64,000 bases of DNA from a virus. The position numbers and the translations under genes were made by a program. The notes under the pieces are model-generated. The model was not told where the DNA came from, ran no database searches, and saw nothing but the letters and a program-made list of their open reading frames with translations. Positions 5,548 to 48,017 of the stretch are shown in pieces. The stretch is taken from positions 24,487 to 88,486 of the IMG/VR virus record IMGVR_UViG_3300030329_001671; one strand, 5' to 3'. The stretch's first letter is position 1, and every line of letters starts with the position of its first letter.

Positions 5548-5745
5548 ATGGGAATACTTGGGTTTGTAAAGGGGTTGTTCGGCGGAACTGCTATTGAGCC
5601 AGATTTCGCAAAGCCAACTCAGACATCTTCTAACCATAATGTAGCTAACCAGTTACACAGGCCAACTATGTCTGCTCCGACTACTAAACGTAGTCGAAAG
5701 CCCCGAAAACGAAATGCTAAGGGTCAATTTGTATCCGAGGCGTAG
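5548..5745 (+). CDS. Small basic protein
   Basis: 65 residues with a strong site (AAGGAGA) before ATG 5548. The N-terminus is hydrophobic/glycine-rich (GILGFVKGLFGG), followed by a Ser/Thr linker and a basic end (TKRSRKPRKRNAKGQF) suggesting nucleic-acid binding. Function unknown; it sits between the SSB-like and polymerase genes. Confidence 0.6.
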   Translation: MGILGFVKGLFGGTAIEPDFAKPTQTSSNHNVANQLHRPTMSAPTTKRSRKPRKRNAKGQFVSEA

Positions 5746-5749
5746 AATA

Positions 5750-5779
5750 GTAGGGGGGATGCTTAGGTGTCCCCCCTAC
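5750..5779 (+). promoter_or_regulatory. Hairpin enclosing the DNA polymerase start codon
   Basis: GTAGGGGGG (5750-5758) pairs perfectly over 9 bp with CCCCCCTAC (5771-5779). The 12-base loop holds the GTG start (5767-5769), and the only G-rich ribosome-site candidate lies inside the 5' arm. Folded mRNA would hide both. By analogy with the T4 gp43 operator hairpin this could be a translational control site; that role is inference. A short in-loop ATG (5759) opens a 9-codon frame that closes at a TAA just after the hairpin. Confidence 0.6.
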
Positions 5780-7920: not shown

Positions 7921-8126
7921 AGATAGATCAGGCTTTAGGATTTACCGTCAATTTAGGTGATTATAACAATGCTAAAATTGAAGTAACTATCCGAGATATA
8001 GACACAGAAGAAGATTTGGATGAACAAATGGCTAAAGCTAAAGTCGCTATAAATAAGGCATGGCCTTTGGTTTTGTCTGCGGCTGATGCCGAGGTAACAA
8101 AAATAAGGAGTCTAGCTAATGGCTAA
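7917..8126 (+). CDS. Small hypothetical protein
   Basis: 69 residues, ATGA overlap with the polymerase stop and 8-base overlap with recA. Acidic middle (DIDTEEDLDEQ) and a helical end. Its coupling between polymerase and recombinase suggests a DNA-metabolism role; no motif recognised. Confidence 0.65.
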   Translation: MKIDQALGFTVNLGDYNNAKIEVTIRDIDTEEDLDEQMAKAKVAINKAWPLVLSAADAEVTKIRSLANG

Positions 8127-9138
8127 AACTAAGACAGAAACCCCTTTGATGGATCAGCTTCTAAAGGGAGTGGATGGGCTTACGTTAGCGTCGGATAACG
8201 AGTTTAAATTTGAGCGTATACCTTTCGGTATCCCCCAGTTGGATAAATTGACAGGTGGGGGAATTCCTAAGAAGCGGTTTACACTACTAACGGGTCAGCC
8301 TAGTGGTGGTAAGTCGTATCTTGCTATGAAAGCGGTCGAATCTGTCCAAAAAGCAGGAGGAACGGCGGTTTGGATTGATACTGAGATGTCTTTAGATGAC
8401 TCATGGTTCCGTAAGTGTGGAGTCAACCCCGACTTACTTCTTGCGTCCCAACCAGAAAATGGGGAGGCGGCAATAGAAATTGCTAGAGCCGTTATGGAAG
8501 CAGGAGTGGACTTGGTGGTGATAGATAGTATTGCAGGTATGGTTCCCGCAGCAGAATTAGCGGATTTCGATAAAAGTCCTATGGGATGGTTGGCTAGGTT
8601 TGTAAACGATTCCCTTAGTAGGTTGATGAGTCGGCTAAAGCATGGGTCGTCCTTGATTTGTATAAACCAACAACGATCAGCTATTGGACCTGTGGCGATT
8701 AAAGACATGCCGGGTGGTAAGGGTCAGGTGTATTGGAACCACATGATGCTTGAAGTACGAAGATCCGGGTGGATAGAGAACAAGAAAACTAAAATTAAAG
8801 AAGGCTTCGATATGGAGGTCACTCTAAAGAAGAATAAAACTTCGGCTGACCATTGGCAAAAAGTGGTTGTACCCTTTAAAGTAGATGGTGGAATAGATAC
8901 TATGGAAAGCTATATGCGTGAAGGCATAGCTTATGGCTTCATCCAACAGTCTGGAGCATGGTACGAGTACAATGATAATAAGGTCATGGGATTAAATGGA
9001 CTTAAGACTTTATTGGTAACAGAACAACCAGAGTTAGGACAAAAATTAAAGGAAGATGTAGATAATGCCTCTCAACGTTCAATCGGCACCTCAAGCGATG
9101 ACTCCGCAGGAAGTAAAAATAGCCAACTACTTAAGTGA
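8119..9138 (+). CDS. RecA/UvsX-type recombinase
   Basis: 339 residues. Walker A GQPSGGKS (~residues 60-67), Walker B VDLVVIDSIAG, and the L2-side motif SLICINQQR, followed by a MAW-like basic stretch. The protein forms filaments on single-stranded DNA and drives strand exchange, recombination-dependent replication and repair. The C-terminus is Ser/Asp-rich, as in RecA. The next gene starts 74 bases before its stop. Shorter than bacterial RecA and typical of phage RecA-like proteins. Confidence 0.92.
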   Translation: MAKTKTETPLMDQLLKGVDGLTLASDNEFKFERIPFGIPQLDKLTGGGIPKKRFTLLTGQPSGGKSYLAMKAVESVQKAGGTAVWIDTEMSLDDSWFRKCGVNPDLLLASQPENGEAAIEIARAVMEAGVDLVVIDSIAGMVPAAELADFDKSPMGWLARFVNDSLSRLMSRLKHGSSLICINQQRSAIGPVAIKDMPGGKGQVYWNHMMLEVRRSGWIENKKTKIKEGFDMEVTLKKNKTSADHWQKVVVPFKVDGGIDTMESYMREGIAYGFIQQSGAWYEYNDNKVMGLNGLKTLLVTEQPELGQKLKEDVDNASQRSIGTSSDDSAGSKNSQLLK

Positions 9139-9412
9139 GTTGGGGTTGCGGTGGGAGTCTCAGAGGGAAATAGGTAAATATTTTGTAGACTTTTGGATAG
9201 CCGAAATTGGGACAGTTATTGAGGCGGATGGGGTTTACGGTCATTTTTCTAAAAAAGATAAAGAACGGAATGAATTCTTGCTAGAAAGTGGAGTAGATTA
9301 CGTTTTACATATTACGTCGGAAAATGCTTCGGAAATTCAACACGATATTGACGCATTTTTAGTTGATATTGCTATAGACATGAATCGTAAAAAAGGAAAT
9401 AAATGGGCGTAA
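9065..9412 (+). CDS. DUF559/VSR-like endonuclease (PD-(D/E)XK fold candidate)
   Basis: 115 residues. The run GKYFVDFWI (Asp) followed by VIEADGVYG (Glu) resembles the active-site strands of DUF559/very-short-patch-repair nucleases. The motif is D-x(n)-E-x-D without an obvious Lys. ATG 9065 has GGAAG about 10 bases upstream; ATG 9098 lacks a site, so I keep 9065 despite the 74-base overlap with recA. Likely a small nuclease in recombination or host-DNA attack. Family placement is from pattern memory, so moderate. Confidence 0.6.
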   Translation: MPLNVQSAPQAMTPQEVKIANYLSELGLRWESQREIGKYFVDFWIAEIGTVIEADGVYGHFSKKDKERNEFLLESGVDYVLHITSENASEIQHDIDAFLVDIAIDMNRKKGNKWA

Positions 9413-10101
9413 AAGAAATAACAGAAAATGTTACTAAATCTTGGGATACCAAAGATTTAGGTCAATTGCTAGTAAAACAGTTGGATAAACAGTTAGCCCA
9501 TCCTCAAAAAAGTACTAGTAAAGGTAAGTTCTTTGTATCTGCTATAGGGAACCCTTGTGACCGATACTTGTGGCTTCACTACAATGGACTAGTGCCTAAA
9601 AAATCAATTTCGTCTACGTTACAACGTATATTTGGTGTAGGTAGTTCCGCTGAGGATAGGTACGCTAAGTATTTTGGCGATATGATGCTATACAGGGAGC
9701 AATCCTGTAAGATAGAGAGCCCTGTTACTTTATCGGGTCGTGCTGACTTCATACTTCACCATGATGGTAGATTATTTGTGCTAGAACTCAAAACTATCAA
9801 TCAAAGAGGTTGGGACGAGGACATATCTAATGGTCCCAAGACTGAGCATTCTACCCAATTACAGTGTTACCTACATATGTTAGGACATTCCGAAGGAGTA
9901 ATTTTGTATGAAAACAAAAATACTCAACAGATTAAGACTTTTGTAGTAAAACGAAATGACGACTTATGGGATGGAATTTTGTCCAGAGCGCAAGCTATCG
10001 TTAATATGCCAGTTCCACCTAGATTAGCGGAAGTAGAGTCCACGCATTATCATTACTGTGATTGCAAATTAGTAAAAGATGAGGAATTAGGTCTTGGCTA
10101 A
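9403..10101 (+). CDS. Cas4/RecB-like PD-(D/E)XK exonuclease
   Basis: 232 residues. Nuclease core: GRADFILHHDGRLFVLELKT (Asp, then E-L-K), followed by the QLQCYLHMLG helix seen in Cas4/RecB-type nucleases. Cysteines occur at NPCDRYLW near the N-terminus and HYCDC near the C-terminus; this could be a Cas4-like iron-sulfur site, though one of the usual four cysteines is not obvious. Probable role: DNA end resection for RecA-mediated recombination, consistent with its place two genes after recA. Confidence 0.78.
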   Translation: MGVKEITENVTKSWDTKDLGQLLVKQLDKQLAHPQKSTSKGKFFVSAIGNPCDRYLWLHYNGLVPKKSISSTLQRIFGVGSSAEDRYAKYFGDMMLYREQSCKIESPVTLSGRADFILHHDGRLFVLELKTINQRGWDEDISNGPKTEHSTQLQCYLHMLGHSEGVILYENKNTQQIKTFVVKRNDDLWDGILSRAQAIVNMPVPPRLAEVESTHYHYCDCKLVKDEELGLG

Positions 10102-10684
10102 ACTAATTGGGCTACACGGTAAAATGCACACAGGCAAGTCTGCTGTAGCTAAACTAATTAAACAAAAAGATCCTAATAGAATTGAAATTATGTCCTTCGC
10201 TGGAAAACTCAGAGAAGTACTAAATGTTTTAGGCATTCAGGAAACTAGAGAGTCTATGCAACAAGTAGGGCAAAGTTTGAGGGATATATGGCCAGATGTT
10301 TGGGTGAAAGCCGTTCATAAAGATGTTCAGCGGAGGTTAAATTTAGGGCATTCTGTAATTTTCGATGATTTACGGTATCTTAATGAATTCGATTACGTCC
10401 GGGAAGAAAATGGTTTACTAGTTAAGTTGTATGCGGATGAGGAAGTGCGGTGGGACAGATATCAAAAGTCTAGTAAATGGGAACCGGGGGCAACTAGGGA
10501 AAAATGGAATTACGCTCAAACCCATTCATCCGAATTAGAATTAGATGATAAGGAATTAGATTGGAATCTAGCTATCGACACGAATAATTTATCTAAACGT
10601 GACATGAACGGTGTGGCCGACGCACTAGTGATAAGCCTTCAAGGTATGAGGAATATAAATGATAGAAGAAACTTGGACAGTTGA
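10094..10684 (+). CDS. Deoxynucleoside monophosphate kinase-like P-loop protein
   Basis: 196 residues from TTG 10094; the next ATG would destroy the Walker A (GLHGKMHTGKS), so TTG is required. The frame overlaps the upstream stop by 8 bases. After the P-loop, the layout (FAGKLREVL, then VIFDDLRYLNEFDYVRE with Asp-Asp-x-Arg) resembles T4 gp1-type dNMP kinases and dephospho-CoA kinases. In a phage replication operon with RNR and MazG, dNMP phosphorylation is the simplest reading. Substrate unproven. Confidence 0.72.
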   Translation: MAKLIGLHGKMHTGKSAVAKLIKQKDPNRIEIMSFAGKLREVLNVLGIQETRESMQQVGQSLRDIWPDVWVKAVHKDVQRRLNLGHSVIFDDLRYLNEFDYVREENGLLVKLYADEEVRWDRYQKSSKWEPGATREKWNYAQTHSSELELDDKELDWNLAIDTNNLSKRDMNGVADALVISLQGMRNINDRRNLDS

Positions 10685-11159
10685 AAAAGGCTACAATAAA
10701 GCTAATCAATATGTAGAGGATATGGAAATTCCTTTTATTAGAATTGAAGACAACACTCGTGAAGATATTACGTTTGGGAATTTGTCGGAAGCGACTAACG
10801 AACAACTACAGGAATACTTATCTGTGTCTGGAGCTTGGTTAGCTTTTGTTGAATTAAATTTAGCCGCTTTGGGCGCAAAAAAGGGCGCATATGAAACGGC
10901 GTTTGAAACAGGGATGAAGGTAGAAAAAGCCAAGCTAGCTGAAGAATATTTAGAAAAAGGAATCCGTAAACCTACTATTGATGAAATGGAAGGTATAATA
11001 CTAAGAGACAATAAACGTCTAAACACTAGTATGAAAACCCTAATAGAAATCAGAGCTGCCTACGATAAATTATTAGGGCGTAAAGAAGCCTTTAAGGGAT
11101 TGTTTAATACATCTAGTAGAGTATTATCCGCTAGAAGCCTAGAGGCAGGAAAAGGATAA
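10659..11159 (+). CDS. Hypothetical helical protein
   Basis: 166 residues, largely helical and charged, with segments predicted by eye to form coiled coils (KVEKAKLAEEYLEKGI). Overlaps its neighbours by 26 bases upstream and 1 base downstream. No motif recognised; position suggests a DNA-metabolism accessory. Confidence 0.7.
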   Translation: MIEETWTVEKGYNKANQYVEDMEIPFIRIEDNTREDITFGNLSEATNEQLQEYLSVSGAWLAFVELNLAALGAKKGAYETAFETGMKVEKAKLAEEYLEKGIRKPTIDEMEGIILRDNKRLNTSMKTLIEIRAAYDKLLGRKEAFKGLFNTSSRVLSARSLEAGKG

Positions 11160-39029: not shown

Positions 39030-39235
39030 AGAAAGTACAGTCACCGTGTAATAATAAGCCTGTTTTACGATGGAACATAAGTATTTTACGATAAATATAT
39101 TTCAAAATATTTCAAATCAGTTCAAATTAGTGTTTTCATGGCCATATTTTCGGCTGAATGTCAAATCCAAAACTATCTTATATAATTATATGGTGAGTTC
39201 AAATCATAAGGTTTTGCCCCTAGGGAAACATAAAA

Positions 39236-39527
39236 AGGGAATTGGGAATCCGGGGAATCGGGAATTCGGGGAAACACTGGGGAATCGGCAATTACGGGGA
39301 ATCGGGAATGCAGGGAATCGGGAATGTGTGGGCAATGCGGGAATACGCAGGGGAATAGGGGAATACGGGAATGTACAGGCAATGTAGGGAATACGGGAAT
39401 ATATAGGGAATCTGGGAATTGGGGGAATTAGAACATACGTTCTAAAGGAATTCGTAAATTAGGGAATTAGGGAATGTAGGAATTCGTAAATTAAATTAAG
39501 GAATTCGACGACTTATAGGGAATTGCC
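39236..39527 (+). repeat. GGGAAT short-repeat cluster
   Basis: I count 21 exact GGGAAT hexamers in about 290 bases on the + strand, with variants GGCAAT and GGAATT between them. Spacing is irregular (7-20 bases), so it is not a simple tandem array. G-runs every ~10-14 bases. Three reverse copies (ATTCCC) lie at 42285-42310. Candidate iteron-like origin or protein-loading site; no function proven. Confidence 0.8.
39429..39444. promoter_or_regulatory. Operator-like palindrome TAGAACAtacgTTCTA
   Basis: TAGAACATACGTTCTA, copy 1 of 5 of the TAGAACA-NN-TGTTCTA palindrome (GAAC-N4-GTTC core, like Gram-positive LexA boxes). Lies inside the GGGAAT cluster. Confidence 0.6.
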
Positions 39528-39638
39528 CCTAGAAAAACACAAGCGAATTCGTAATTCTTCCCCGGCGGAATGACCGGGATCGGGGAATCTAAATAAAAAT
39601 TCTAAATTTTTCCAGTAGCAGCTGGAGGGGGAATAAGA

Positions 39639-39833
39639 ATGGCACGAAGAGGAGTAAAGTCATTGCAAGAGGAATTAGAGGAATACCAAGAGTATCCGGC
39701 AAAAGATTTGCATGACCGGACCCAGCACGAAATTTTAGAAAAACTTTACTGGCAACTGGTTTATACCCGGCAAGTACTTACTGGAATGGGAATGGTCGTC
39801 ATCGTCGTCTTGATCCTGCTGATGCTAAAATAG
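39639..39833 (+). CDS. Small membrane protein
   Basis: 64 residues with a helical charged N-terminus and a C-terminal membrane segment (MGMVVIVVLILLMLK). GGAGGGGGA upstream of ATG. It contains one in-frame copy of the AAAATTTAGAAAAA motif (EILEK). Tail-anchored topology; function unknown. Confidence 0.6.
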   Translation: MARRGVKSLQEELEEYQEYPAKDLHDRTQHEILEKLYWQLVYTRQVLTGMGMVVIVVLILLMLK

Positions 39834-39927
39834 AACAGGTGTTCTAAATTTCACGAATAAATTGGGCAGGGTCGGCGTCTTCCTTTTTGGCCCTTACTTC
39901 GTGAACTTAGTTCTCTCTTTTTATGTT
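39829..39927 (-). ncRNA. Candidate reverse-strand small RNA
   Basis: Predicted from the reverse consensus promoter at 39934-39962. No ATG-started frame follows on the - strand. The stretch holds an 8-bp inverted repeat TTCACGAA (39850-39857) / TTCGTGAA (39898-39905) and ends at the palindrome plus T-run. Could be a regulatory RNA or simply a promoter opposing the early genes. Inference only. Confidence 0.4.
39831..39846. promoter_or_regulatory. Operator-like palindrome TAGAACAGGTGTTCTA
   Basis: Perfect 16-bp palindrome, copy 2 of 5. It overlaps the stop of the 39639 gene and lies downstream of a reverse promoter; on the - strand it is followed by TTTTAG, so it could also end a reverse transcript. 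Confidence 0.65.
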
Positions 39928-39933
39928 ACTTAT

Positions 39934-39962
39934 ATTATAACATACACTTCTACCCTTGTCAA
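39934..39962 (-). promoter_or_regulatory. Perfect sigma70 promoter, reverse strand
   Basis: Read on the - strand: TTGACA (39962-39957), 17-base spacer, TATAAT (39939-39934). It is the only full consensus reverse promoter I found in a window whose genes are all on the + strand. Confidence 0.75.
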
Positions 39963-39981
39963 GTCTTTTTGGAGGCAATTT

Positions 39982-40113
39982 ATGAAACAGGCCGAACTTA
40001 CCCGGTTGATGGCTGAGGCCGAGCGGGCGGAGGAAGAAGATTATCAGCTGGCTATCATGAAATATCTCTCTGTTATAGCTCATTCCCTACTTATAGCTGA
40101 CGAAGACGACTGA
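39982..40113 (+). CDS. Tiny helical protein
   Basis: 43 residues from ATG 39982 with GGAGG upstream. Helical with acidic stretch AEAERAEEEDY. The longer open frame (from 39862) has no site. Unknown function. Confidence 0.55.
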   Translation: MKQAELTRLMAEAERAEEEDYQLAIMKYLSVIAHSLLIADEDD

Positions 40114-40265
40114 CTGGAGGAATAGAGCTCCAGTTCAGGCAGCTGAAAAATTTAGAAAAACTTCCCAGTAGCCAGATCCCAGCTACCCAGTGTTTCAGGT
40201 CTCCCGGTGTTCCCGGCCAGATCCGGGGCAAAAATTTAGAAAAGTTGTAATTTCTTATAAAGGTG

Positions 40266-40294
40266 TTGACATGTCCTGAGCTGTCTGTTATTAT
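40266..40294 (+). promoter_or_regulatory. Sigma70 promoter
   Basis: TTGACA-17-TATTAT, 30 bases before the 40324 gene. A copy of the A-rich motif (40230) lies upstream. Confidence 0.85.
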
Positions 40295-40323
40295 ATAAGC
40301 ACACAAACAGGAAGGAAAGAAAA

Positions 40324-40602
40324 ATGTATAAGTTCTTCAGCACACCGTCACACGGATACCTAGCTGTTCCGACAGCAGACTACGAAGCTAGCGGATATAA
40401 GGCTTCCCGCTTCTCCTACAAGCTAGGAGAGCAGTTAGTCTACCTAGAGGAAGATTGCGACGCTAGAGGCTTCATGGACGCTTTCAACGTGTCACTTGAC
40501 GACGTAAAGGAAGTTGTGATAGACTACGACCTAACGCAACGAAAGTCTCTCGAACCGATGAGTGGCGAAGGTTTTGAACTAAGAATAGGAACGGGATACT
40601 AA
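40324..40602 (+). CDS. Small hypothetical protein
   Basis: 92 residues, GGAAGGAAAG before ATG, own promoter. Mixed alpha/beta, acidic. First of a four-gene unit (40324-41114). Not recognised. Confidence 0.65.
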   Translation: MYKFFSTPSHGYLAVPTADYEASGYKASRFSYKLGEQLVYLEEDCDARGFMDAFNVSLDDVKEVVIDYDLTQRKSLEPMSGEGFELRIGTGY

Positions 40603-40603
40603 A

Positions 40604-40696
40604 ATGATTAGATGTAACGAGTGTGGACGAGCATTCGACCTGAACGATACTCGTGATGCCGATGAGTGGTATCACGGTCATGACTGTGAGGTATAA
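40604..40696 (+). CDS. Zinc-knuckle micropeptide
   Basis: 30 residues: CNEC near the start and HGHDC at the end make a complete CxxC...HxxxC-like zinc site. One base after the previous stop, so likely translationally coupled. Its compact metal motif makes it more than a chance frame. Confidence 0.5.
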   Translation: MIRCNECGRAFDLNDTRDADEWYHGHDCEV

Positions 40697-40697
40697 A

Positions 40698-40823
40698 ATG
40701 ACTTATGTAGTATGGGTTGGTGGTGTAGACGACCACTACCAAACAAAAGAAGAAGCAGAGCAAGCAACCAAAGAATGGAAAGAGAAAGGCTACGACGATG
40801 TTATCCTTGAACTACGACCATGA
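40698..40823 (+). CDS. Small hypothetical protein
   Basis: 41 residues: MTYVVWVGGVDDHYQTKEEA then EWKEKGYDDVILE, a beta-alpha-beta-like small domain. Begins one base after the previous stop. Confidence 0.5.
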   Translation: MTYVVWVGGVDDHYQTKEEAEQATKEWKEKGYDDVILELRP

Positions 40824-40850
40824 ATGTGCGGAAAGGAAAATTTAGAAAAA

Positions 40851-41114
40851 ATGACGACTAAACAACGATATGAAAAAATGTTTGTGACGGTTCCTGAGTC
40901 TGCATTAGACGACCCTAACCATGAATCCGCAATAGAGGACATGAATGGGTACATCGAGCGTATGGGGGGAACCGCACACGCTCCTGATGGTATGGACTAC
41001 TCTTGGACTGTTCCCGCTCACTGGACCTTTAGGTTCTACGAGCGATTCAAGTCCTTTGGTCTCAATGCTAGAGTACTTCCCGGTTCGCATTGGTTTGGAA
41101 TGTTAGAAAATTAG
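40851..41114 (+). CDS. Hypothetical protein
   Basis: 87 residues from ATG 40851, with AAAGGA upstream separated from ATG by one copy of the A-rich motif, the same layout as the 42042 gene. The frame extends in-phase to ATG 40824, which would add nine residues encoded by the motif. Contains FYERFKSFGLNARVLPGSHWF. Not recognised. Confidence 0.6.
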   Translation: MTTKQRYEKMFVTVPESALDDPNHESAIEDMNGYIERMGGTAHAPDGMDYSWTVPAHWTFRFYERFKSFGLNARVLPGSHWFGMLEN

Positions 41115-41117
41115 GGG

Positions 41118-41146
41118 TTGACAAGCATAAAAGTTTATGCTATAAT
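41118..41146 (+). promoter_or_regulatory. Perfect sigma70 promoter
   Basis: TTGACA-17-TATAAT, exact consensus. No gene follows; it appears to drive the small structured RNA at 41153. Confidence 0.9.
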
Positions 41147-41152
41147 ATAGTC

Positions 41153-41230
41153 AAGCTAGTGAGGCGGGCATGGTCAGACATTCCCTTATGAAGATAAGAT
41201 GACACGCTGAAACCGCCCGCCCCTAGCAGA
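41153..41230 (+). ncRNA. Candidate small structured RNA
   Basis: Starts about 7 bases after a perfect promoter. GCTAG (41155) pairs with CTAGC (41223-41227) and GGCGGGC (41163-41169) with GCCCGCC (41215-41221), a closing stem of 12 bp; inside are GTCA/TGAC and CTTAT/ATAAG with a GAAG loop. No open frame of note. Lacks a T-tract, so its 3' end is uncertain. Family unknown. Confidence 0.6.
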
Positions 41231-41254
41231 AAAAATATTAGAAAAAGATAGGTG

Positions 41255-41283
41255 TTGACATGTAGTAAAAAGTATGCTACAAT
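41255..41283 (+). promoter_or_regulatory. Sigma70 promoter for large ncRNA
   Basis: TTGACA-17-TACAAT, just after a motif copy at 41231. Confidence 0.85.
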
Positions 41284-41289
41284 ATATGT

Positions 41290-41710
41290 ATGAGGTAAGG
41301 AACTGAGAATTCCTAATGAACAGACTAACTGCGGGTTAGCGCAAGCCTTAAAAAAGCATACCTGTTCAGACTTATCAGTACCTCTAGGAGCGGGAGTGAG
41401 GATACACGCAACAGTCTTAGTTACTTAGTAAAGTATTCAACTCCAATGCTCCGACACTCGGAGTGGAGACTGAAGGGGTCATTACCCGCCACCTGTTTCA
41501 AACGCAGAGTCCAGTCTCAACTGAGGGGAGCGAAAATAGAATATTGAACCATGCAAATGTCCCTCATTCATATGGCAGCATCACAAGTAGTGAGCAATGA
41601 AGAATCCTAGGATAACTTCTCAGCCGATGTCTTGTAATATGCAGACCATCCCTGAACTGCACACATCCCTCTGTTGAATCATATTCTAATATCGCTCCCC
41701 TCTTTTATTT
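41290..41710 (+). ncRNA. Large structured noncoding RNA candidate (~415 nt)
   Basis: No coding frame with a ribosome site; own promoter; ends at a strong terminator-like helix. Helices visible: GAGGTA/TACCTC and GAACAG/CTGTTC closing a 5' domain (~41292-41388) that holds AGGAA/TTCCT and CTAAC/GTTAG hairpins; GAGACTG/CAGTCTC around GGGG/CCCC in the middle; and a 3' domain closed by GAGGGGAGCGA (41523-41533) with TCGCTCCCCTC (41692-41702), extended by TAGAATAT/ATATTCTA, then TTTTATTT. This density of long-range pairing argues for a folded functional RNA. I recognise no tmRNA, RNase P, 6S or group I intron signature. Confidence 0.7.
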
Positions 41711-41716
41711 AAAGAC

Positions 41717-41745
41717 TTGACAGCCTCTTTGTACTATGCTAAAAT
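41717..41745 (+). promoter_or_regulatory. Sigma70 promoter
   Basis: TTGACA-17-TAAAAT, 23 bases before the 41768 gene. Confidence 0.85.
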
Positions 41746-41767
41746 ATATGTACAAGGAGCAAATGAC

Positions 41768-42025
41768 ATGAACTTAACAAAAGATGGATACCTAGTCGGA
41801 CAGAGCGGTGTGCTTGTTACATGCCCTATCTGTCTCGGTGACATGTGCGGTTGCTACGATGACCTTGAGGTCAAGGGATACCGCATCTGTAAGGGTTGCG
41901 CTAGTGAGTACGAAGCGCATTGGGGTCGCCCACCGTCTAAGGGAACGATTAGCAAAGCTATCAAAGCATTAGTCGCTCAGGGGTTGTGGGACAGAAAAAC
42001 CCACAGCGTCCCTAAAGCGGCGTAA
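41768..42025 (+). CDS. Small zinc-finger protein
   Basis: 85 residues from ATG 41768 (AAGGAG upstream). CPIC...CGC...CKGC cysteines form a likely zinc site, followed by a helical region (GTISKAIKALVAQGLW) that could be a winged-helix-like DNA binder. Possible transcription-related early protein. Confidence 0.65.
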   Translation: MNLTKDGYLVGQSGVLVTCPICLGDMCGCYDDLEVKGYRICKGCASEYEAHWGRPPSKGTISKAIKALVAQGLWDRKTHSVPKAA

Positions 42026-42041
42026 AGGAAAATTTAGAAAA

Positions 42042-42251
42042 ATGACACAGCAAGACACATTCTTGGCCTCCCTACGGGGACAATACATCATGGCGCAAGC
42101 CTTAGAGGTTGCCATTGATACGCTAGAAAAAGTAGAACCACCATACATGAGGGAAGAATCCAACATAGCGGACATGAAGTTCCTAAGAGAAAAATTCAAC
42201 TTCCCGATCTTCATGGAGCGGGCATTCCTAGCACAGAAATTTGGAGAATGA
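42042..42251 (+). CDS. Small helical protein
   Basis: 69 residues. Start as in the 40851 gene: AAAGGA, then a motif copy, then ATG. All-helical by eye. Unknown function. Confidence 0.6.
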   Translation: MTQQDTFLASLRGQYIMAQALEVAIDTLEKVEPPYMREESNIADMKFLREKFNFPIFMERAFLAQKFGE

Positions 42252-42333
42252 TATGAGAAGGGAAACCATTTGCCTATTCCCTCCCTCATTCCCTCCTATT
42301 CCCTCTAGGCAATAAGCCAATATAGAGGGGAAT

Positions 42334-42371
42334 CCCCTAGCAGTTCAGTCATTTCTGCTAGGGGATTTTTT
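42334..42371 (+). terminator. Strong intrinsic terminator
   Basis: CCCCTAGCAG (42334-42343) pairs perfectly with CTGCTAGGGG (42355-42364), then ATTTTTT. Confidence 0.92.
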
Positions 42372-42639
42372 ATTTCCCCGGCCTTTCTCCAGTAGTTGGA
42401 GGGAAAAATTTAGAAAAAATCTTCAGGAATCACTGGACGAGGCCTACTGGATCTACCAATTTCCGTTTATCAATATACATTCCGCCCAGTCTTCAGCTGG
42501 AATTCTGGTCTGGTGCAGCTGGATCTGGGAAAAATTTAGAAAAATCCCCCCGGCGGATGTAGTCGGGATGCTTCCGGCTCTGATCCCAGCATCCTAGCTC
42601 CCAGCCGGGAATTGCCGGGTCTGGCTAAAATTTAGAAAT

Positions 42640-42668
42640 TTGACGACTCCCCGGTTTTCTGCTATACT
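42640..42668 (+). promoter_or_regulatory. Sigma70 promoter
   Basis: TTGACG-17-TATACT, directly after a motif copy (42627-42638). Confidence 0.75.
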
Positions 42669-42686
42669 TTCCGGCCGGAGGAAAAA

Positions 42687-42941
42687 ATGGAAAAAGAAAC
42701 ATACTCGCCCCTATCCAATAAAAAGACTAGGGAGCCATTTTTAGAAAAAATCCAAATATTACATGAGGCTATGGAAAATGTAATTGAGGCACATGAAACT
42801 TGGTTACAGGACGCAACCGATTGGACGAAAAAAGATGAGAGCGGAATGGTTCGCATGTCTCGTTCATGGCTAGACGAATCTCTTGAGGAGGGCAAAGACG
42901 CTCTCAAAAATTTGAAAAAATATAAAATCTTTCAAAATTGA
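42687..42941 (+). CDS. Small helical protein
   Basis: 84 residues, GGAGG before ATG. Helical and acidic with Trp; two in-frame copies of the A-rich motif encode FLEKI and NLKKY. Unknown function. Confidence 0.62.
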   Translation: MEKETYSPLSNKKTREPFLEKIQILHEAMENVIEAHETWLQDATDWTKKDESGMVRMSRSWLDESLEEGKDALKNLKKYKIFQN

Positions 42942-42953
42942 TAGAAAAACCTC

Positions 42954-42980
42954 TTGACAAACGGTTTTCGTTCCTATAAT
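42954..42980 (+). promoter_or_regulatory. Sigma70 promoter (short spacer)
   Basis: TTGACA-15-TATAAT before the 43019 gene. Confidence 0.75.
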
Positions 42981-43018
42981 ATAGGTAGTACATCAAAACA
43001 AGTGATTTGGAGAAAACA

Positions 43019-43363
43019 ATGATTATCACCCCACAACAGTACCCTACCTTATCAAAAGAGGTCAAAGGCGACCCTCACAATTTCCTAGCGGGAGATGAGA
43101 TAGAAATTTCGGGGACACGTTTCCCTGTGGTACGTCGCATATTCAACGTAGAAGGCGAAATCGAAAAGGTGCTAGTTGCCAAGACGCATGTTCGTATGAG
43201 TGTGCAGAACGATTACCTTGACGCATTTGAAGATGCGATGGAAACCAAAAATTCAGAAAAACTTGAAGATATCGCTCACAAGATATTCGATCAAGTTGGT
43301 ACAACTCTAGTTTCATTGTACGGATTTGAGGATAGTCGTCCTAGCGACGATGAATCTAAGTAG
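43019..43363 (+). CDS. Hypothetical protein
   Basis: 114 residues from ATG 43019 (GGAG upstream; the TTG at 43007 is part of the leader). N-terminal half beta-rich (FLAGDEIEISGTRFPVVRRIF), C-terminal helical. Carries a KNSEKL motif copy. Followed by a strong terminator, so monocistronic. Confidence 0.65.
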   Translation: MIITPQQYPTLSKEVKGDPHNFLAGDEIEISGTRFPVVRRIFNVEGEIEKVLVAKTHVRMSVQNDYLDAFEDAMETKNSEKLEDIAHKIFDQVGTTLVSLYGFEDSRPSDDESK

Positions 43364-43383
43364 GTTTCTCCTACCTCTTGTTT

Positions 43384-43417
43384 CTCCCCTACCCACCTAA
43401 TGGGTAGGGGAGTTTTT
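43384..43417 (+). terminator. Strong intrinsic terminator
   Basis: CTCCCCTACCC (43384-43394) pairs with GGGTAGGGGAG (43402-43412), then TTTTT. Confidence 0.93.
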
Positions 43418-43427
43418 ATTTTAGCAC

Positions 43428-43456
43428 TTGACAAATTATAAATTTTAGGATATCCT
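43428..43456 (+). promoter_or_regulatory. Sigma70 promoter
   Basis: TTGACA-17-TATCCT, 20 bases before the 43477 gene; placed directly after a terminator. Confidence 0.75.
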
Positions 43457-43476
43457 TACGTGTAAGGAGAAAAGAA

Positions 43477-43752
43477 ATGTCTACATACGATTACCTAAAA
43501 ACTGAATCTACTGAGGAGCGAGTGCCAAAAGACGCTGACATCTCGGTAGCCGAAAACTTGAGGTTGTTGCAAGTTGGCGACAGAATCGACGTTTACTCCC
43601 CTATTACTGAGGATTGGACATACGCTTCAGTTCTAAAAGCGAGTGACGATTGGATTGAGACTATATTCACTGATGGTGAGGTTGTAGTTTTTAGTCTAGA
43701 TGAAATGCCGATTTGGAAAAATGAAGGATTCGATATAAGGAGTGCAGTATAA
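43477..43752 (+). CDS. Small SH3-like or beta protein
   Basis: 91 residues, AAGGAG before ATG. The C-terminal half (LQVGDRIDVYSPITEDWTYASVL...FTDGEVVVFSLDEM) reads like a small beta-barrel (Tudor/SH3-like). Function unknown. Confidence 0.6.
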   Translation: MSTYDYLKTESTEERVPKDADISVAENLRLLQVGDRIDVYSPITEDWTYASVLKASDDWIETIFTDGEVVVFSLDEMPIWKNEGFDIRSAV

Positions 43753-44198
43753 TGCCTAATTGGTGCAGTAACGAAGTGCAGGTATATAGCACAAAAGAAA
43801 ATTTAGAAAAATTTATCGACGAGTGTTTCACAGATTTCAAAGGAACGCCTGTTTTAGATTTCAATAAGGTTCTGCCCGAACCTGACTATAAGAAACCACA
43901 GAAAGACGGTACGCATAACAATGGAGTGCAGACTCAGTTATCTACTGTAATGCCTGATTGGTGGACTTGGCGCAATGATACGTGGGGTACGAAATGGAAT
44001 CTAGTACCTAGCGATGACAGTACCTTAGATGGTTACGAGATATTCCAAACCGATGACTGTCTAGAGTTGAGGTTTGATACGGCGTGGTCACCACCTAACG
44101 GTGTCTACGATGAAATTGTTGACAAATACCCTGACCTTGATGTAACGTGGTTCTATCGAGAAGATGGCATGCAGTTTGCAGGTTGGTTGCCTGACTAA
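43752..44198 (+). CDS. Api92-like ferredoxin-fold protein
   Basis: 148 residues, ATG overlapping the upstream stop. The start MPNWCSNEVQVY and the later WRNDTWGTKWNLVP plus FDTAWSPP match the Api92/YubB-like (DUF1281) family common on phages and plasmids; biochemical role not established. One motif copy encodes ENLEK near the N-terminus. Confidence 0.75.
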   Translation: MPNWCSNEVQVYSTKENLEKFIDECFTDFKGTPVLDFNKVLPEPDYKKPQKDGTHNNGVQTQLSTVMPDWWTWRNDTWGTKWNLVPSDDSTLDGYEIFQTDDCLELRFDTAWSPPNGVYDEIVDKYPDLDVTWFYREDGMQFAGWLPD

Positions 44199-44207
44199 GG
44201 AGTAGTT

Positions 44208-44336
44208 ATGAATTGGAAAAATTTGAAAAAAGCTTGGCAGGAGTCAGGCGACGAGCGTTGGATACAGCACCCGAAGGGTCATCGAGCGCAGAAGAAAGCC
44301 GAGAGGCGCAACCGCAAAGAGGGTAGGCTAAGGTAG
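44208..44336 (+). CDS. Small basic protein overlapping tRNA
   Basis: 42 residues, AAGGAG before ATG 44208. Trp- and Lys/Arg-rich (MNWKNLKKAW...AQKKAERRNRKEGRLR). Its last six codons and stop lie inside the tRNA gene. Could be real or a leader frame. Confidence 0.45.
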   Translation: MNWKNLKKAWQESGDERWIQHPKGHRAQKKAERRNRKEGRLR

Positions 44337-44389
44337 CCAACAGGTCTCCAAAACCTGAGGAGTGAGTTCGATTCTTACACCCTCTGCCA
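44318..44389 (+). tRNA. tRNA-Trp (anticodon CCA)
   Basis: Acceptor arms AGAGGGT (44318) and ACCCTCT pair over 7 bp; anticodon stem CAGGT/ACCTG with loop CTCCAAA gives anticodon CCA; T arm GTGAG-TTCGATT-CTTAC; discriminator G and encoded CCA end at 44389. The D arm is reduced (GGCT-AAGGT-AGCC), giving 72 nt in all. The only tRNA I found. Confidence 0.88.
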
Positions 44390-44391
44390 CT

Positions 44392-44421
44392 CCCCTAGCA
44401 TTTGCTAGGGGATTACTTTTT
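44392..44421 (+). terminator. Intrinsic terminator after tRNA
   Basis: CCCCTAGC (44392-44399) pairs with GCTAGGGG (44404-44411), followed by a T-rich run. Confidence 0.85.
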
Positions 44422-44439
44422 ACACCTAAAGGAACGATT

Positions 44440-44928
44440 ATGAGATATTTTACTGGAGCTCCCAGTAGCGACACGGAGAAAATTTTAGAAAAAGTGGCCG
44501 GAAAGTATCAAGCCCGGCATCTATCAAAGAACTCGAAGAAAAGGAAGGCCAGAAAGATTTTTACCGAGAAATCTCTTGAGCAGGCCAAGAAAAATTGGAA
44601 AGATGGAAAGAGAAGTAATTGGTCTTACGATAAAGAGGCTTGGCTAGAAGCAACAGTTCGTACTGAAGAACTGGACATGGGGCGTTATTACTGGATCTCC
44701 CGGAACTGGGAGAAGACCGGGGCCTTTGTAAAAATTTTAGAAAAAAGTACCGAGCTCAATCCAGCTGGTCTGCCGAGCAGCGTAACTGTCGAAGTAGTAA
44801 AACCAGTAGGGGCTTACCAGTTAGGTCAGATAAAACTTATGAACGCCACCCAGATCTTTGACCACCGGGCGCATGCCAGCAAAGAAAATTTTAGAAAATA
44901 TCTAGCCGGGGAGCCTTACATTGTTTAG
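44440..44928 (+). CDS. Hypothetical basic protein
   Basis: 162 residues from ATG 44440 (AAAGGA upstream; the longer open frame crosses the tRNA). Basic N-terminal half (KNSKKRKARKIF), later TVEVVKPVGAYQLG. Three motif copies are encoded in frame (KILEK twice, ENFRK). Unknown function. Confidence 0.65.
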   Translation: MRYFTGAPSSDTEKILEKVAGKYQARHLSKNSKKRKARKIFTEKSLEQAKKNWKDGKRSNWSYDKEAWLEATVRTEELDMGRYYWISRNWEKTGAFVKILEKSTELNPAGLPSSVTVEVVKPVGAYQLGQIKLMNATQIFDHRAHASKENFRKYLAGEPYIV

Positions 44929-45011
44929 AAAATTTTCCCAGAAGGTGCGGCGGTACTGGACTGCACAGCGTTGCGGTTGGGACGGAATATGTGCCGAGTC
45001 ACATAAATAAT

Positions 45012-45040
45012 TTGACACTCTGGAGTTTTTATGTTATTAT
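45012..45040 (+). promoter_or_regulatory. Sigma70 promoter
   Basis: TTGACA-17-TATTAT before the 45063 gene. Confidence 0.85.
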
Positions 45041-45062
45041 ATAGAGAACAGGAGTAAATGAA

Positions 45063-45203
45063 ATGAAACAGACATGGGTACTAAGAGAATGGGTCAAGTG
45101 GGTTATATTCTTCACGATTCTATATTTCTTACTAGTATGGGTAGGCTTTCCAATGCCTGAGGTCACCCTACCCTCTGTAAGTTGGGACGGAGTTTGTAAC
45201 TAA
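45063..45203 (+). CDS. Single-pass membrane peptide
   Basis: 46 residues from ATG 45063, CAGGAG upstream. One membrane segment (VIFFTILYFLLVWVGF) flanked by basic N-terminus. An overlapping 15-codon frame follows at 45203. Confidence 0.6.
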   Translation: MKQTWVLREWVKWVIFFTILYFLLVWVGFPMPEVTLPSVSWDGVCN

Positions 45204-45242
45204 TGGAAAAGAAAAATTCTAAAAATCCGTGGTGGGCATACA

Positions 45243-45392
45243 ATGACTAAAGTTATACATAGAACACTAAGAGGATACTCACACGAATGCGAAATCGTGG
45301 GGGAAGGTGAAGAAGTAGGTCGTAAGGTTTACGACTTAGCGTGTGGCAAGTGGGCGTGGGAAGAACAAGTAAAAATTCAGAAAAAGGATTGA
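45243..45392 (+). CDS. Small hypothetical protein
   Basis: 49 residues from ATG 45243. Contains CEIVGEGEEVG and ACGKWAWEE. The motif copy at 45371 encodes VKIQKK at its end. No clear ribosome site, likely coupled to the upstream mini-frame. Confidence 0.45.
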   Translation: MTKVIHRTLRGYSHECEIVGEGEEVGRKVYDLACGKWAWEEQVKIQKKD

Positions 45393-45393
45393 G

Positions 45394-45639
45394 ATGACAA
45401 CAATAGCAAGAAATAGAAATGAAGCAGAAGTGTATATCATGGACGTTATCGACAAGCTAGGGGGAGGCACAATCACGCAACCCCTACTTGACGACTCCGA
45501 CCCTGATTTTCCATTCGTAGGCTTTAGAGTCGTCAAAGACGAGCAGACGCTAAACGTATGGGTACTACGTGACCCTGAAGGTAATGGAAGCGGTCACCTG
45601 TCGATAGAAGAACCAAATCAATTTGGAAATTTTGATTGA
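45394..45639 (+). CDS. Small hypothetical protein
   Basis: 81 residues, starting one base after the previous stop with GGATTGAG upstream. Alpha/beta with acidic residues. The next promoter's -35 overlaps its stop codon. Confidence 0.62.
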   Translation: MTTIARNRNEAEVYIMDVIDKLGGGTITQPLLDDSDPDFPFVGFRVVKDEQTLNVWVLRDPEGNGSGHLSIEEPNQFGNFD

Positions 45640-45663
45640 CAATTCACTCCTCCCTGTTATAAT
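45636..45663 (+). promoter_or_regulatory. Sigma70 promoter
   Basis: TTGACA-16-TATAAT, overlapping the stop of the preceding gene. Confidence 0.88.
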
Positions 45664-45682
45664 AAATAGCAGGAGGAAGGAG

Positions 45683-45820
45683 ATGAATATAAAAACTGAA
45701 CACAACGGGGCGAAAAACGGCGGGGGATATTGGGGTACTAGGAAGGAAGCAAAGAAATTCAGTTCACGTATACGGCGCATAAATGCCAAAAGTGAAATCA
45801 AACAACAGCTTACCGACTAA
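45683..45820 (+). CDS. Small basic protein
   Basis: 45 residues from ATG 45683 (GGAGGAAGGAG upstream, very strong). GGGYWGTRKEAKKFSSRIRR suggests nucleic-acid binding. Own promoter and terminator. Confidence 0.65.
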   Translation: MNIKTEHNGAKNGGGYWGTRKEAKKFSSRIRRINAKSEIKQQLTD

Positions 45821-45842
45821 CCCACCCGCCTACATAAAGAAG

Positions 45843-45867
45843 AACCCACCAACTCGGTGGGTTTTTT
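45843..45867 (+). terminator. Intrinsic terminator
   Basis: AACCCACC (45843-45850) pairs with GGTGGGTT (45856-45863), then TTTT. Confidence 0.92.
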
Positions 45868-45891
45868 GTTGACCAAAATTTAGAAAAATAC

Positions 45892-45920
45892 TTGACGGTC
45901 GTTCTGCCCTATGCTATAAT
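45892..45920 (+). promoter_or_regulatory. Sigma70 promoter
   Basis: TTGACG-17-TATAAT, two bases after a motif copy (45874-45889). Confidence 0.88.
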
Positions 45921-45948
45921 ATATGTATAACAAGACAGGAGAGAAGAA

Positions 45949-46209
45949 ATGACCCTAAAAATCAACAACCTAAATCGTGATGCAGAAGATTATCTGATTG
46001 AGTTCGTACATGGCGAGCAGGAAGCCGACAGAAATTGGTACTCCCCTATCGTAGATGTTCAATCCATCGAAGATGCCGTACAGTGGCTTACCGACAATGA
46101 GTACGATTGGAAGGAGATGGTTCTAAAGTTTGCGCCGAACCAGAAGTGGGACGACATGGATTGGCAAGAAAAGGAGTGGTGGATACAAAAGGAACAAGGC
46201 ATACGATGA
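45949..46209 (+). CDS. Small acidic protein
   Basis: 86 residues, AGGAG upstream. Acidic and Trp-rich (EADRNWYS, DNEYDWKEMVL, WDDMDWQEKEWW). Monocistronic with own promoter and terminator. Such acidic proteins can mimic DNA; speculative. Confidence 0.65.
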   Translation: MTLKINNLNRDAEDYLIEFVHGEQEADRNWYSPIVDVQSIEDAVQWLTDNEYDWKEMVLKFAPNQKWDDMDWQEKEWWIQKEQGIR

Positions 46210-46228
46210 CCCCTACCACTAAACTAAT

Positions 46229-46253
46229 AACCCACCCTAGCAGGTGGGTTTTT
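46229..46253 (+). terminator. Intrinsic terminator
   Basis: AACCCACC (46229-46236) with GGTGGGTT (46243-46250), then TTTA. Confidence 0.9.
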
Positions 46254-46277
46254 ATTGTCCAAAATTTAGAAAAATAC

Positions 46278-46306
46278 TTGACGCCTAAAGCAGAAGGTGA
46301 TATAAT
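46278..46306 (+). promoter_or_regulatory. Sigma70 promoter
   Basis: TTGACG-17-TATAAT, two bases after a motif copy (46260-46275); the same terminator-motif-promoter order as at 45.85-45.92 kb. Confidence 0.88.
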
Positions 46307-46326
46307 TTAGAACAAGGAGGATAGTT

Positions 46327-46542
46327 ATGAAACTACCATTTGATGTACCGATTATCGACACCGAACCACAAGTAGTGAAGAACCGATTCGGTGGAGGGTC
46401 AGCCACCCTAACACCCGAAGCGGTAGCGGTATACGACACAATCATCGGAGCAGAGCAGTTCCACGACTACGAGACAGTTCAGAAGGGTTTAGCTTGGTTC
46501 GTGAAGCACTACCCCGAAGAATATATGGTACTACTAGACTAG
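46327..46542 (+). CDS. Small hypothetical protein
   Basis: 71 residues, AAGGAGG before ATG. Contains VPIIDTEPQVVKNRFGGG then a helical acidic half. Monocistronic. Confidence 0.65.
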   Translation: MKLPFDVPIIDTEPQVVKNRFGGGSATLTPEAVAVYDTIIGAEQFHDYETVQKGLAWFVKHYPEEYMVLLD

Positions 46543-46560
46543 TAGTCGAACTCACCAGAA

Positions 46561-46584
46561 AGCCCGCCATTCGGCGGGTTTTTT
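46561..46584 (+). terminator. Intrinsic terminator
   Basis: CCCGCC (46563-46568) with GGCGGG (46573-46578), then TTTTTT. Confidence 0.9.
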
Positions 46585-46648
46585 GCTTTTTAGGACAAAA
46601 TTTGAAAAATTCTAAAAATTTACGACCAGATGCCAATTCCTACGTAGT

Positions 46649-46654
46649 TATAAT
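46649..46654 (+). promoter_or_regulatory. Promoter -10 box
   Basis: TATAAT in AGTTATAATATAA; no good -35 at 16-18 bases. A GTACC/GGTAC hairpin (46661-46675) follows in the leader. Confidence 0.55.
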
Positions 46655-46699
46655 ATAAATGTACCAACTGGGTACACGGCACGAATCAGGAGAAACTGA

Positions 46700-46879
46700 A
46701 TGGCGAAGAACGTCAAACTGCTCGATATTGTAAACGATAGCCCAAATTACGTGATAGATGTAGTTGAGAAACTATGGAGCATCGTTACAGACATACCAAA
46801 ACCAGTTCAAATTGTTCTGGGAGCTGCAATTGTGGGGCTGGTGCTGGAAAACTCCGGCTATATAACCCTCCCCTTTTAG
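46700..46879 (+). CDS. Small membrane-associated protein
   Basis: 59 residues from ATG 46700 (CAGGAG upstream). C-terminal hydrophobic segment (VQIVLGAAIVGLVLENSGYI). Followed by a motif copy and a terminator. Confidence 0.6.
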   Translation: MAKNVKLLDIVNDSPNYVIDVVEKLWSIVTDIPKPVQIVLGAAIVGLVLENSGYITLPF

Positions 46880-46907
46880 TAAAAATTTAGAAAATTAGTA
46901 AAGACAG

Positions 46908-46944
46908 CCCGGCTTCCGCCCTACACTGGGGGAGCCGGGTTTTT
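46908..46944 (+). terminator. Intrinsic terminator
   Basis: CCCGGCT (46908-46914) with AGCCGGG (46933-46939), then TTTTT. Confidence 0.85.
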
Positions 46945-47035
46945 ATTTTTACCCGGTACAGCTGCAGGATCATTGGGTACAGCTGCAGGCTCGCCCAGTA
47001 TAGCTCAGGCCAGAAAAGAAAAATTTTAGAAAAAC

Positions 47036-47064
47036 TTGACAGAGCAGATTCTACCCCTTATAAT
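47036..47064 (+). promoter_or_regulatory. Perfect sigma70 promoter
   Basis: TTGACA-17-TATAAT, directly after a motif copy (47018-47034). Confidence 0.92.
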
Positions 47065-47095
47065 AAGGAGACAACATTTAGAGCAAGGAGAGAAA

Positions 47096-47476
47096 ATGGG
47101 TTTTGAATCATTAGGAAGAAAAGAAGCCAAATTTTTGGCATCAGTTAGTCAAGAGAAACTAGCCGAAACGTTCAAAGAAATGGGTTTGACCGTCGATATG
47201 GGACGTTCTACCTATTACGCCGAAGGTCACAAGTTAGACTTCAAGTTCTCGGTGGAACTACCTGAGAAAGCGGACGTTATGAAAAATTCAGAACTTTCGT
47301 TATATGGGTTAGATGCTAAGGTCGGAGATGAGTTCTCGGATTGGAGTGGAACTAAGTTCCGAATACTCGGAGTCAACAAAAAAGCTAGGAAGTACCCTAT
47401 CAAGATACTACGTCTAAGCGATAACTCACAACGAAAAGCACCTGTTGACTTTGTTCGGCGAGCATTGAAAGGATAA
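47096..47476 (+). CDS. Hypothetical protein
   Basis: 126 residues from ATG 47096 (AAGGAG upstream). N-terminal helices, C-terminal beta part (VGDEFSDWSGTKFRILGVNKKARKYPIKIL) that may be a small barrel. Monocistronic. Unknown function. Confidence 0.65.
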   Translation: MGFESLGRKEAKFLASVSQEKLAETFKEMGLTVDMGRSTYYAEGHKLDFKFSVELPEKADVMKNSELSLYGLDAKVGDEFSDWSGTKFRILGVNKKARKYPIKILRLSDNSQRKAPVDFVRRALKG

Positions 47477-47495
47477 AAATTTAGAAAATTTAGAA

Positions 47496-47522
47496 AACCC
47501 GTCAGTGATGGCGGGTTTTTTA
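47496..47522 (+). terminator. Intrinsic terminator
   Basis: AACCCGTCA (47496-47504) with TGGCGGGTT (47509-47517), then TTTT; preceded by two tandem motif copies. Confidence 0.88.
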
Positions 47523-47523
47523 T

Positions 47524-47552
47524 TTGACATATATCGAATATGGGTGTAAAGT
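47524..47552 (+). promoter_or_regulatory. Sigma70 promoter
   Basis: TTGACA-17-TAAAGT, immediately after the terminator. Confidence 0.75.
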
Positions 47553-47580
47553 ACATATAACGAAAACAAGGAGCGAGAAA

Positions 47581-47793
47581 ATGAAAACACTAACAAAACA
47601 ACACCTAGATGAGTTTCTAGTATTAGCTAATGGGTTATCTCCCGAAAACCTACACATGGACGGTGAAGCTACTAAAAAGCAGGTTACGCAACGTCGCAAG
47701 ATTCTAATGGGTCAATGGCGACAGTTAGAAAAAGCCGTTGGAAGAAAAGTCACCGAAGAAGATGTTTGGCAAGAGTTTTTCGCTAGGAGATAA
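47581..47793 (+). CDS. Small helical protein
   Basis: 70 residues from ATG 47581 (AAGGAG upstream). Helical and basic (KKQVTQRRKILMGQWRQLEK). Not recognised; co-transcribed with the next gene. Confidence 0.62.
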   Translation: MKTLTKQHLDEFLVLANGLSPENLHMDGEATKKQVTQRRKILMGQWRQLEKAVGRKVTEEDVWQEFFARR

Positions 47794-47795
47794 GA

Positions 47796-47978
47796 ATGAT
47801 TATTGATACATGCCCAACATGCCACCAAATAATTGATGAGGGAGATATGCCGTTGACCATAGAACAAGCACACATCGATTCTGACGAACACGCCCGACGA
47901 TGTGATGATGAGAATTGCAACGAGTGCGACTACGATTCTAGCGACGTCGATTATGGTGACTATGACCCGTCCGTATAG
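47796..47978 (+). CDS. Small zinc-finger protein with acidic tail
   Basis: 60 residues. CPTC near the start and H..H..C....C..C downstream (EHARRCDDENCNEC) form a zinc site; the tail (DYDSSDVDYGDYD) is strongly acidic. GGAG upstream. Function unknown. Confidence 0.6.
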   Translation: MIIDTCPTCHQIIDEGDMPLTIEQAHIDSDEHARRCDDENCNECDYDSSDVDYGDYDPSV

Positions 47979-47983
47979 TCAAA

Positions 47984-48017
47984 AAATGACCCCTTAACCT
48001 AGTTTTGGGGTCATTTT
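47984..48017 (+). terminator. Terminator-like hairpin
   Basis: AAATGACCCC (47984-47993) pairs with GGGGTCATTT (48007-48016); T-rich sequence follows. Confidence 0.75.

Follow-up and report, generated by a model that had tools for sequence, protein, structure and literature searches.

An oriented 14-bp word arrayed over the early genes of a probably lytic marine phage, a candidate binding site for a phage regulator

Why should one short AT-rich word recur inside genes, between genes and beside promoters of a single viral region, almost always facing the same way? This question was raised by the word AAAATTTAGAAAAA in the viral record IMGVR_UViG_3300030329_001671 (88,486 bp, labelled G000), of which we analyzed a window of 64,000 nucleotides (C1:24487-88486; positions refer to this window unless a contig or another stretch is named). 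L123 and L124 are further stretches of the same record. The word accumulates between 39.6 and 47.5 kb, in a block of small and mostly uncharacterised genes with strong TTGACA-17-TATAAT promoters. The reading that we favour, with a probability of roughly 0.45, is that it represents a DNA binding site for a phage regulator of early transcription, acting in a stoperator-like mode.

In this region, 8 exact copies were detected, all on the + strand and none on the - strand, while dinucleotide shuffles contained none. Allowing one mismatch raised the count to 18 (vs. 0.07 in region-matched dinucleotide shuffles) and allowing two mismatches raised it to 26 (vs. 0.27), again exclusively on the + strand. 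When the whole window was scanned with up to two mismatches, 34 matches were found for 2.5 expected, and 26 of them fell in 39,730-47,498. As the word had been chosen after being seen, a null based on the maximum over all words was added: the commonest 12-mer occurred 13 times, compared to 3 times at most across 300 shuffles. Similarly, when the 88.5-kb record was divided into blocks of 7.9 kb, the commonest 9-mer reached 15 copies in one block, which begins at 38.7 kb, and 3 to 5 in the others. The original prediction, made from the sequence letters, had counted about 28 copies confined to 8 kb, to be set against the density in the rest of the genome and in shuffled sequence; both the clustering and the excess are confirmed by these data.

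The aligned copies gave the consensus AAA[A/T]TTTAGAAAAA, with 0.7-1.7 bits per position at the first 13 positions, 0.5 at the last one and about 0.3 or less in the flanks, so that the information is limited to 14 bp. The edges are sharp, the flanks are flat, and the G of the word is invariant in 24 of 24 aligned copies. The copies were also spaced more regularly than random (coefficient of variation 0.55 vs. 0.94, P ~0.0007, in a post hoc test). Outside the array, one exact copy accompanied by a degenerate second copy was found on the - strand at G000:C1:2254, the number of exact copies expected outside the cluster being 0.007. An exact-word scan of IMG/VR returned a single copy per stretch among the matches listed, and no other array there. 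No enriched dyad that could form a palindromic operator was found in G000 with spacers of 0-13 bp, a range that stops short of the phi29-type 15-bp spacer.

The copies and their contexts are as follows (open reading frames, ORFs, were called mechanically; SD, Shine-Dalgarno sequence).

39597..39610, - strand: weak copy (3 mismatches), AAAATTTAGAATTT, at the left edge of the array
39730..39743, + strand: word copy AAATTTTAGAAAAA within ORF 39639-39833, reads ILEK
40147..40160, + strand: exact copy, noncoding; the -35 at 40266 lies 119 bp downstream
40231..40244, + strand: copy with 1 mismatch, noncoding; the -35 at 40266 lies 35 bp downstream
40837..40850, + strand: exact copy, with AAAGG (SD-like) on one side and ATG 40851 on the other
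41233..41246, + strand: copy with 2 mismatches, 8 bp upstream of the -35 at 41255
42029..42042, + strand: exact copy between SD and ATG 42042
42405..42418, + strand: exact copy in a GC-rich noncoding island
42531..42544, + strand: exact copy in a GC-rich noncoding island; the -35 at 42640 lies 109 bp downstream
42627..42640, + strand: copy with 2 mismatches, abutting the -35 at 42640
42738..42751, + strand: variant TTTTTAGAAAAA within ORF 42687-42941, reads FLEK
42906..42919, + strand: variant AAAAATTTGAAAAA within ORF 42687-42941
43248..43261, + strand: copy with 1 mismatch within ORF 43007-43363; the relative's orthologue has neither word nor gap
43798..43811, + strand: exact copy within ORF 43752-44198, reads KENLEKF
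44217..44230, + strand: variant within ORF 44208-44336
44480..44493, + strand: copy within ORF 44362-44928, reads KILEK
44732..44745, + strand: copy within ORF 44362-44928, reads KILEK
44886..44899, + strand: copy within ORF 44362-44928 in a different frame, reads ENFRK
45212..45225, + strand: weak variant AAAAATTCTAAAAA, noncoding
45372..45385, + strand: copy at the 3' end of ORF 45243-45392
45875..45888, + strand: exact copy, terminator before and -35 at 45892 after; TTTTTTAAAAATTTTAG at the relative's syntenic place
46261..46274, + strand: exact copy, terminator before and -35 at 46278 after
46596..46618, + strand: two weak overlapping variants, noncoding
46882..46895, + strand: copy with 1 mismatch, stop codon before and terminator after
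47021..47034, + strand: copy with 1 mismatch, 1 bp upstream of the -35 at 47036
47476..47498, + strand: two overlapping copies offset by 9 bp, stop codon before and terminator after

The noncoding contexts reported from the first inspection were all found again. The word abuts or precedes by 1-3 bp the -35 boxes at 42640, 47036, 45892 and 46278, and precedes by 8 bp that at 41255, so that 4-5 of 16 promoter-like sites carry it 0-8 bp upstream of their -35. It also stands between the ribosome site and the start codon at 40851 and 42042.

Ten of the 26 curated copies are wholly intragenic, and they occupy more than one reading frame. As first noticed, most of them read L-E-K, and N-S-E-K, N-L-K-K, N-F-R-K and K-I-Q-K also occur. 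When codons were shuffled synonymously, with amino acids and codon usage fixed, 1.6 coding copies were obtained (maximum 5), and none of the 300 shuffles reached the 10 observed. The use of several frames, the excess over the synonymous null, and the presence of copies in promoters and spacers together indicate that the word acts at the nucleic-acid and not at the protein level, and that its intragenic copies are under selection above the protein level. The manner in which these copies arose could be followed in two genes. In gene 43752-44198, the word gives KENLEKF where the closest homologues have KEDIAKF or KEDMAKF, with no gap; in gene 43007-43363, the comparison with the orthologue (75% amino-acid identity) showed only point changes at AAAATTCAGAAAAA. 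At least those copies were therefore written by substitution and not by insertion, and the comparison of homologues, which had been proposed as a means to see the word inserted or deleted as a unit, revealed no indel in either alignable gene. The function at the DNA or RNA level deduced initially from the mixed contexts is thus supported, with a binding site for a regulator as its best reading; for the copies that could be followed in homologues, the spreading micro-element proposed beside it is not supported.

One relative, G045 (IMGVR_UViG_3300025131_000024, 71 kb, ~74% nucleotide identity where alignable), was found across the early region, and scans with two genes in or near this region returned that contig alone. 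Three others (G040, G043 and G048, 80-96% identical) stop short of it, so the comparison involves two genomes. G045 does not carry the G000 array; the commonest word of its syntenic early region is TTTTTAAAAA, whose 9-mer TTTTAAAAA occurs 14 times (up to 7 in shuffles). This word is concentrated in the syntenic part of G045 (1.1-11 kb); outside it stand a copy at 34.9 kb and one in a promoter at 24.2 kb. The counts of TTTAGAAAA and TTTAAAAA are 19 and 0 in the early region of G000, and 3 and 15 in that of G045. Far from the cluster, both genomes have a copy just before the GTATAAT of the same orthologous late-type promoter, which is devoid of a normal -35 (TTTTTCTAAATTTTTTCTAAAAATTTTTGTATAAT vs. 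TTATTTTTTTTAAAAAAAATTTGTATAAT). Since both variants stand at one orthologous promoter, AAAATTTAGAAAAA and TTTTTAAAAA look like forms of a single ancestral site, TTTARAAAA. Two further shared places depend on how gaps are placed: one downstream of the gene 45683 terminator (45875 vs. G045 8995) and a weaker one where gene 47096 ends.

Stoperators of Cluster A mycobacteriophages (L5, Bxb1) are asymmetric sites of 13-14 bp, present in 20-30 copies genome-wide and oriented with transcription, some in promoters and most elsewhere, with a consensus that varies among related phages; the repressor of these temperate phages, which have an integrase or parABS, carries helix-turn-helix (HTH) and stoperator domains and blocks elongation when bound at a stoperator (PMC6550527, PMC9283540). 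Likewise, the site described here is asymmetric, 14 bp long and present in about 26 copies; all 26 (two mismatches or fewer) lie on the + strand together with the + gene block, the two outside copies being antisense; and, within one genome pair, the consensus differs in the relative (TTTAGAAAA vs. TTTTAAAAA) with one orthologous site in common. The SPBRE of phage SPbeta is another motif repeated across the DNA of one phage: it is 15 bp long, its ~10 copies are confined to promoter regions, and it was spotted in silico long before its binder, the master regulator MrpR, an integrase-fold protein (PMC10516654). Here the copies number about 26 and many lie outside promoters; a search with PF00589 (tyrosine recombinase) for an MrpR-like protein gave no match, MrpR itself being divergent. 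The protein p4 of phi29 recognises A-tracts in which one G is critical; acting through four sites made up of inverted repeats, CTTTTT-N15-AAAATG, with a 15-bp spacer, it both represses promoters of early genes and activates a late promoter (PMC3100819). The A-tract word with its invariant G and the copies at a late-type promoter recall p4, unlike the arrangement as about 26 single short asymmetric sites. Cluster K mycobacteriophages reportedly have start-associated sequences, a short repeated word close to the sites where translation begins; in the present phage two copies occupy such a position, between SD and ATG, and most are not near starts.

The features shared with Cluster A stoperators, together with the likeness to phi29 p4, lead us to propose that a phage regulator controls early transcription. 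The asymmetric ~14-bp word would be bound by a sequence-specific protein, most probably one that the phage encodes. This protein would lower early transcription at promoters through the copies located 0-8 bp before -35 boxes, and also along the transcription units through the copies in spacers and genes, all of which face with transcription. The double copy at one late-type promoter could allow the same protein to time late expression. The outcome would be an early-to-late switch, polar as in Cluster A stoperators. Phage operators with many sites have been described mostly in temperate mycobacteriophages and in SPbeta. This mode of control would be broadened by an oriented array of equal size, in a seemingly lytic marine lineage, that extends into coding sequence and differs from one relative to the other. 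The array also constitutes a ready-made set of sites for fishing out the regulator.

As to the regulator, the phage encodes a sigma-like protein (G000:C1:23048-23635, Sigma70_r2 family match) and a 102-amino-acid HTH/zinc-finger protein (G000:C1:17315-17623) conserved at 83%. Both show that regulators are encoded and either could take part, neither being tied to the word. The sigma-like protein is unlikely to be the binder, as late-type GTATAAT promoters elsewhere are devoid of the word. Late-type promoters GTATAATAACAATAG lacking a -35 were observed at L123:8402 and at window positions 29195 and 52096; they are perhaps read by the sigma-like protein.

Several observations weigh against the proposed regulator. 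Word and -35 are separated by a variable distance (0 to 21 bp and more). In G045, which alone spans the early region, most promoter-linked words lie 85-104 bp upstream of the -35 and do not adjoin it, and the word is near-palindromic and thus gives no reading of polarity. Scans of selected proteins against PHROGs and Pfam gave no repressor, which a small divergent protein could escape, and family searches for HTH_3, tyrosine integrase and serine recombinase gave no match. A lysogeny-type repressor is therefore without support, and lysogeny is not implied. Unlike Cluster A phages, this one looks lytic; unlike genome-wide stoperators, the array is confined to ~8 kb plus one late-type promoter, and its word is AT-rich and ~40% intragenic.

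The strand bias also fits a role at the RNA level. AAAAUUUAGAAAAA in early transcripts would then be the site of an RNA-binding protein or RNase involved in translation control, processing or mRNA turnover. All 26 early copies are on the sense strand, two are located between SD and ATG, and others adjoin stop codons and terminators. However, the copies at 45875 and 46261 lie upstream of -35s and after a terminator, a place where mRNA should be scarce. The copies outside the cluster are antisense and precede a start site, and the folding of the word-bearing GC-rich islands did not exceed that of their shuffles (z -0.06 to -1.73). We consider this explanation unlikely.

Slightly less plausible is a target for a host nucleoid-associated or xenogeneic-silencing protein with a preference for AT-rich DNA, the copies serving host silencing or acting as a decoy. 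The pure A/T tracts with one G in GC-richer surroundings, their restriction to one cluster of small early genes, and the different AT-rich word of the relative, perhaps on a different host, would all fit. Yet a phage is expected to shed silencer sites rather than acquire them, and silencers usually have broader preferences than an exact 14-mer whose G never varies. Moreover, the scans of genome contigs for a host or prophage yielded none, the sole trace being a weak match over 47 residues.

It is improbable that the word is an UP-like A-tract element for the alpha subunits of host RNA polymerase, the other copies being drift. This proposal, also made initially, holds for at most the 4-5 copies beside -35 boxes, and several early promoters of G045 show an analogous AAATTG..GAAAAAC before the -35; it fails for the remainder, since about 20 copies lie away from promoters and not at a fixed place directly upstream of a -35, coding copies exceed the synonymous null and the spacing to the -35 varies.

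Still less probable is a polar Chi- or pac-like signal for replication, recombination or packaging: one-strand polarity, regular spacing and the conserved GGGAAT tract adjoining at 39.2-39.5 kb are compatible with it, but the word is restricted to 8 kb, with copies at promoters, one of them distant, and a pac site would not require as many as 26 copies spread over 8 kb. Very improbable is a spreading micro-element or a duplicated cassette, as a few flanking bases common to 45875 and 46261 are outweighed by sharp edges, the overall lack of common flanks and the in-place substitutions without indel in both testable genes. A larger duplicated cassette is ruled out, the flanks carrying no information.

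The domain of the array presents a second compositional feature:

39497..47993, no strand: TTAA-poor domain with three TTAA only (41348, 41709, 41774), coextensive with the array

Over 7.9 kb, 3 TTAA were counted for 28.7 expected, and the stretch from 41.8 to 48.0 kb has none. The limits resemble those of the array, the depletion setting in at 39.5 kb and fading out at 48-49.6 kb, and TTAA was the most depleted tetramer among 2051 block tests. Elsewhere in the genome the depletion is mild, and in the early region of G045 there is none (39 vs. 34). The G045 word has TTAA as its core, and this match with the purged tetramer may or may not be a coincidence. A speculative and rather unlikely possibility is that relatives carry a diverging AT-rich silencing site, even in coding sequence, and that purging TTAA allows escape from the regulator of a rival while self-regulation is kept; array and purge would then be the written record of a conflict between related phages. 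Alternatively, the loss could reflect avoidance of a restriction site in first-entering DNA, for which T5 offers a precedent.

Other observations concern the phage and its early block. The window genes include DNA polymerase, ribonucleotide reductase, terminase, RecA and a DnaB-type protein, and capsid relatives are present in many further IMG/VR contigs; the phage is marine, tailed and probably lytic. A tRNA-Trp gene lies at 44318-44389, within the array. The GGGAAT-repeat tract stands directly before the early region in both phages (39200-39520 here, reversed 1-290 in G045) and is a possible origin or end region. In G045 (L297, reversed 14-10807), ten TGTGA-N6-TCACA dyads, CRP/FNR-like, were observed, 7 of them 28-47 bp before early -35s; the early region of G000 has none. 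Palindromes of the TAGAACAnnnGTTCTA type, similar to Gram-positive LexA boxes, are located at 39431, 39833 and 48911, and at reversed 711 in G045, one of them preceding the same orthologous gene in both phages. CGCG is absent from the whole G000 record (~100 expected) and from G045 too, which suggests genome-wide avoidance of a restriction site. Finally, islands rich in CAGCTG (8 of the 12 in the genome), CCAG and CCGG lie between the copies, at 39515-40300, 42260-42640, 44430-44930 and 46930-47040.

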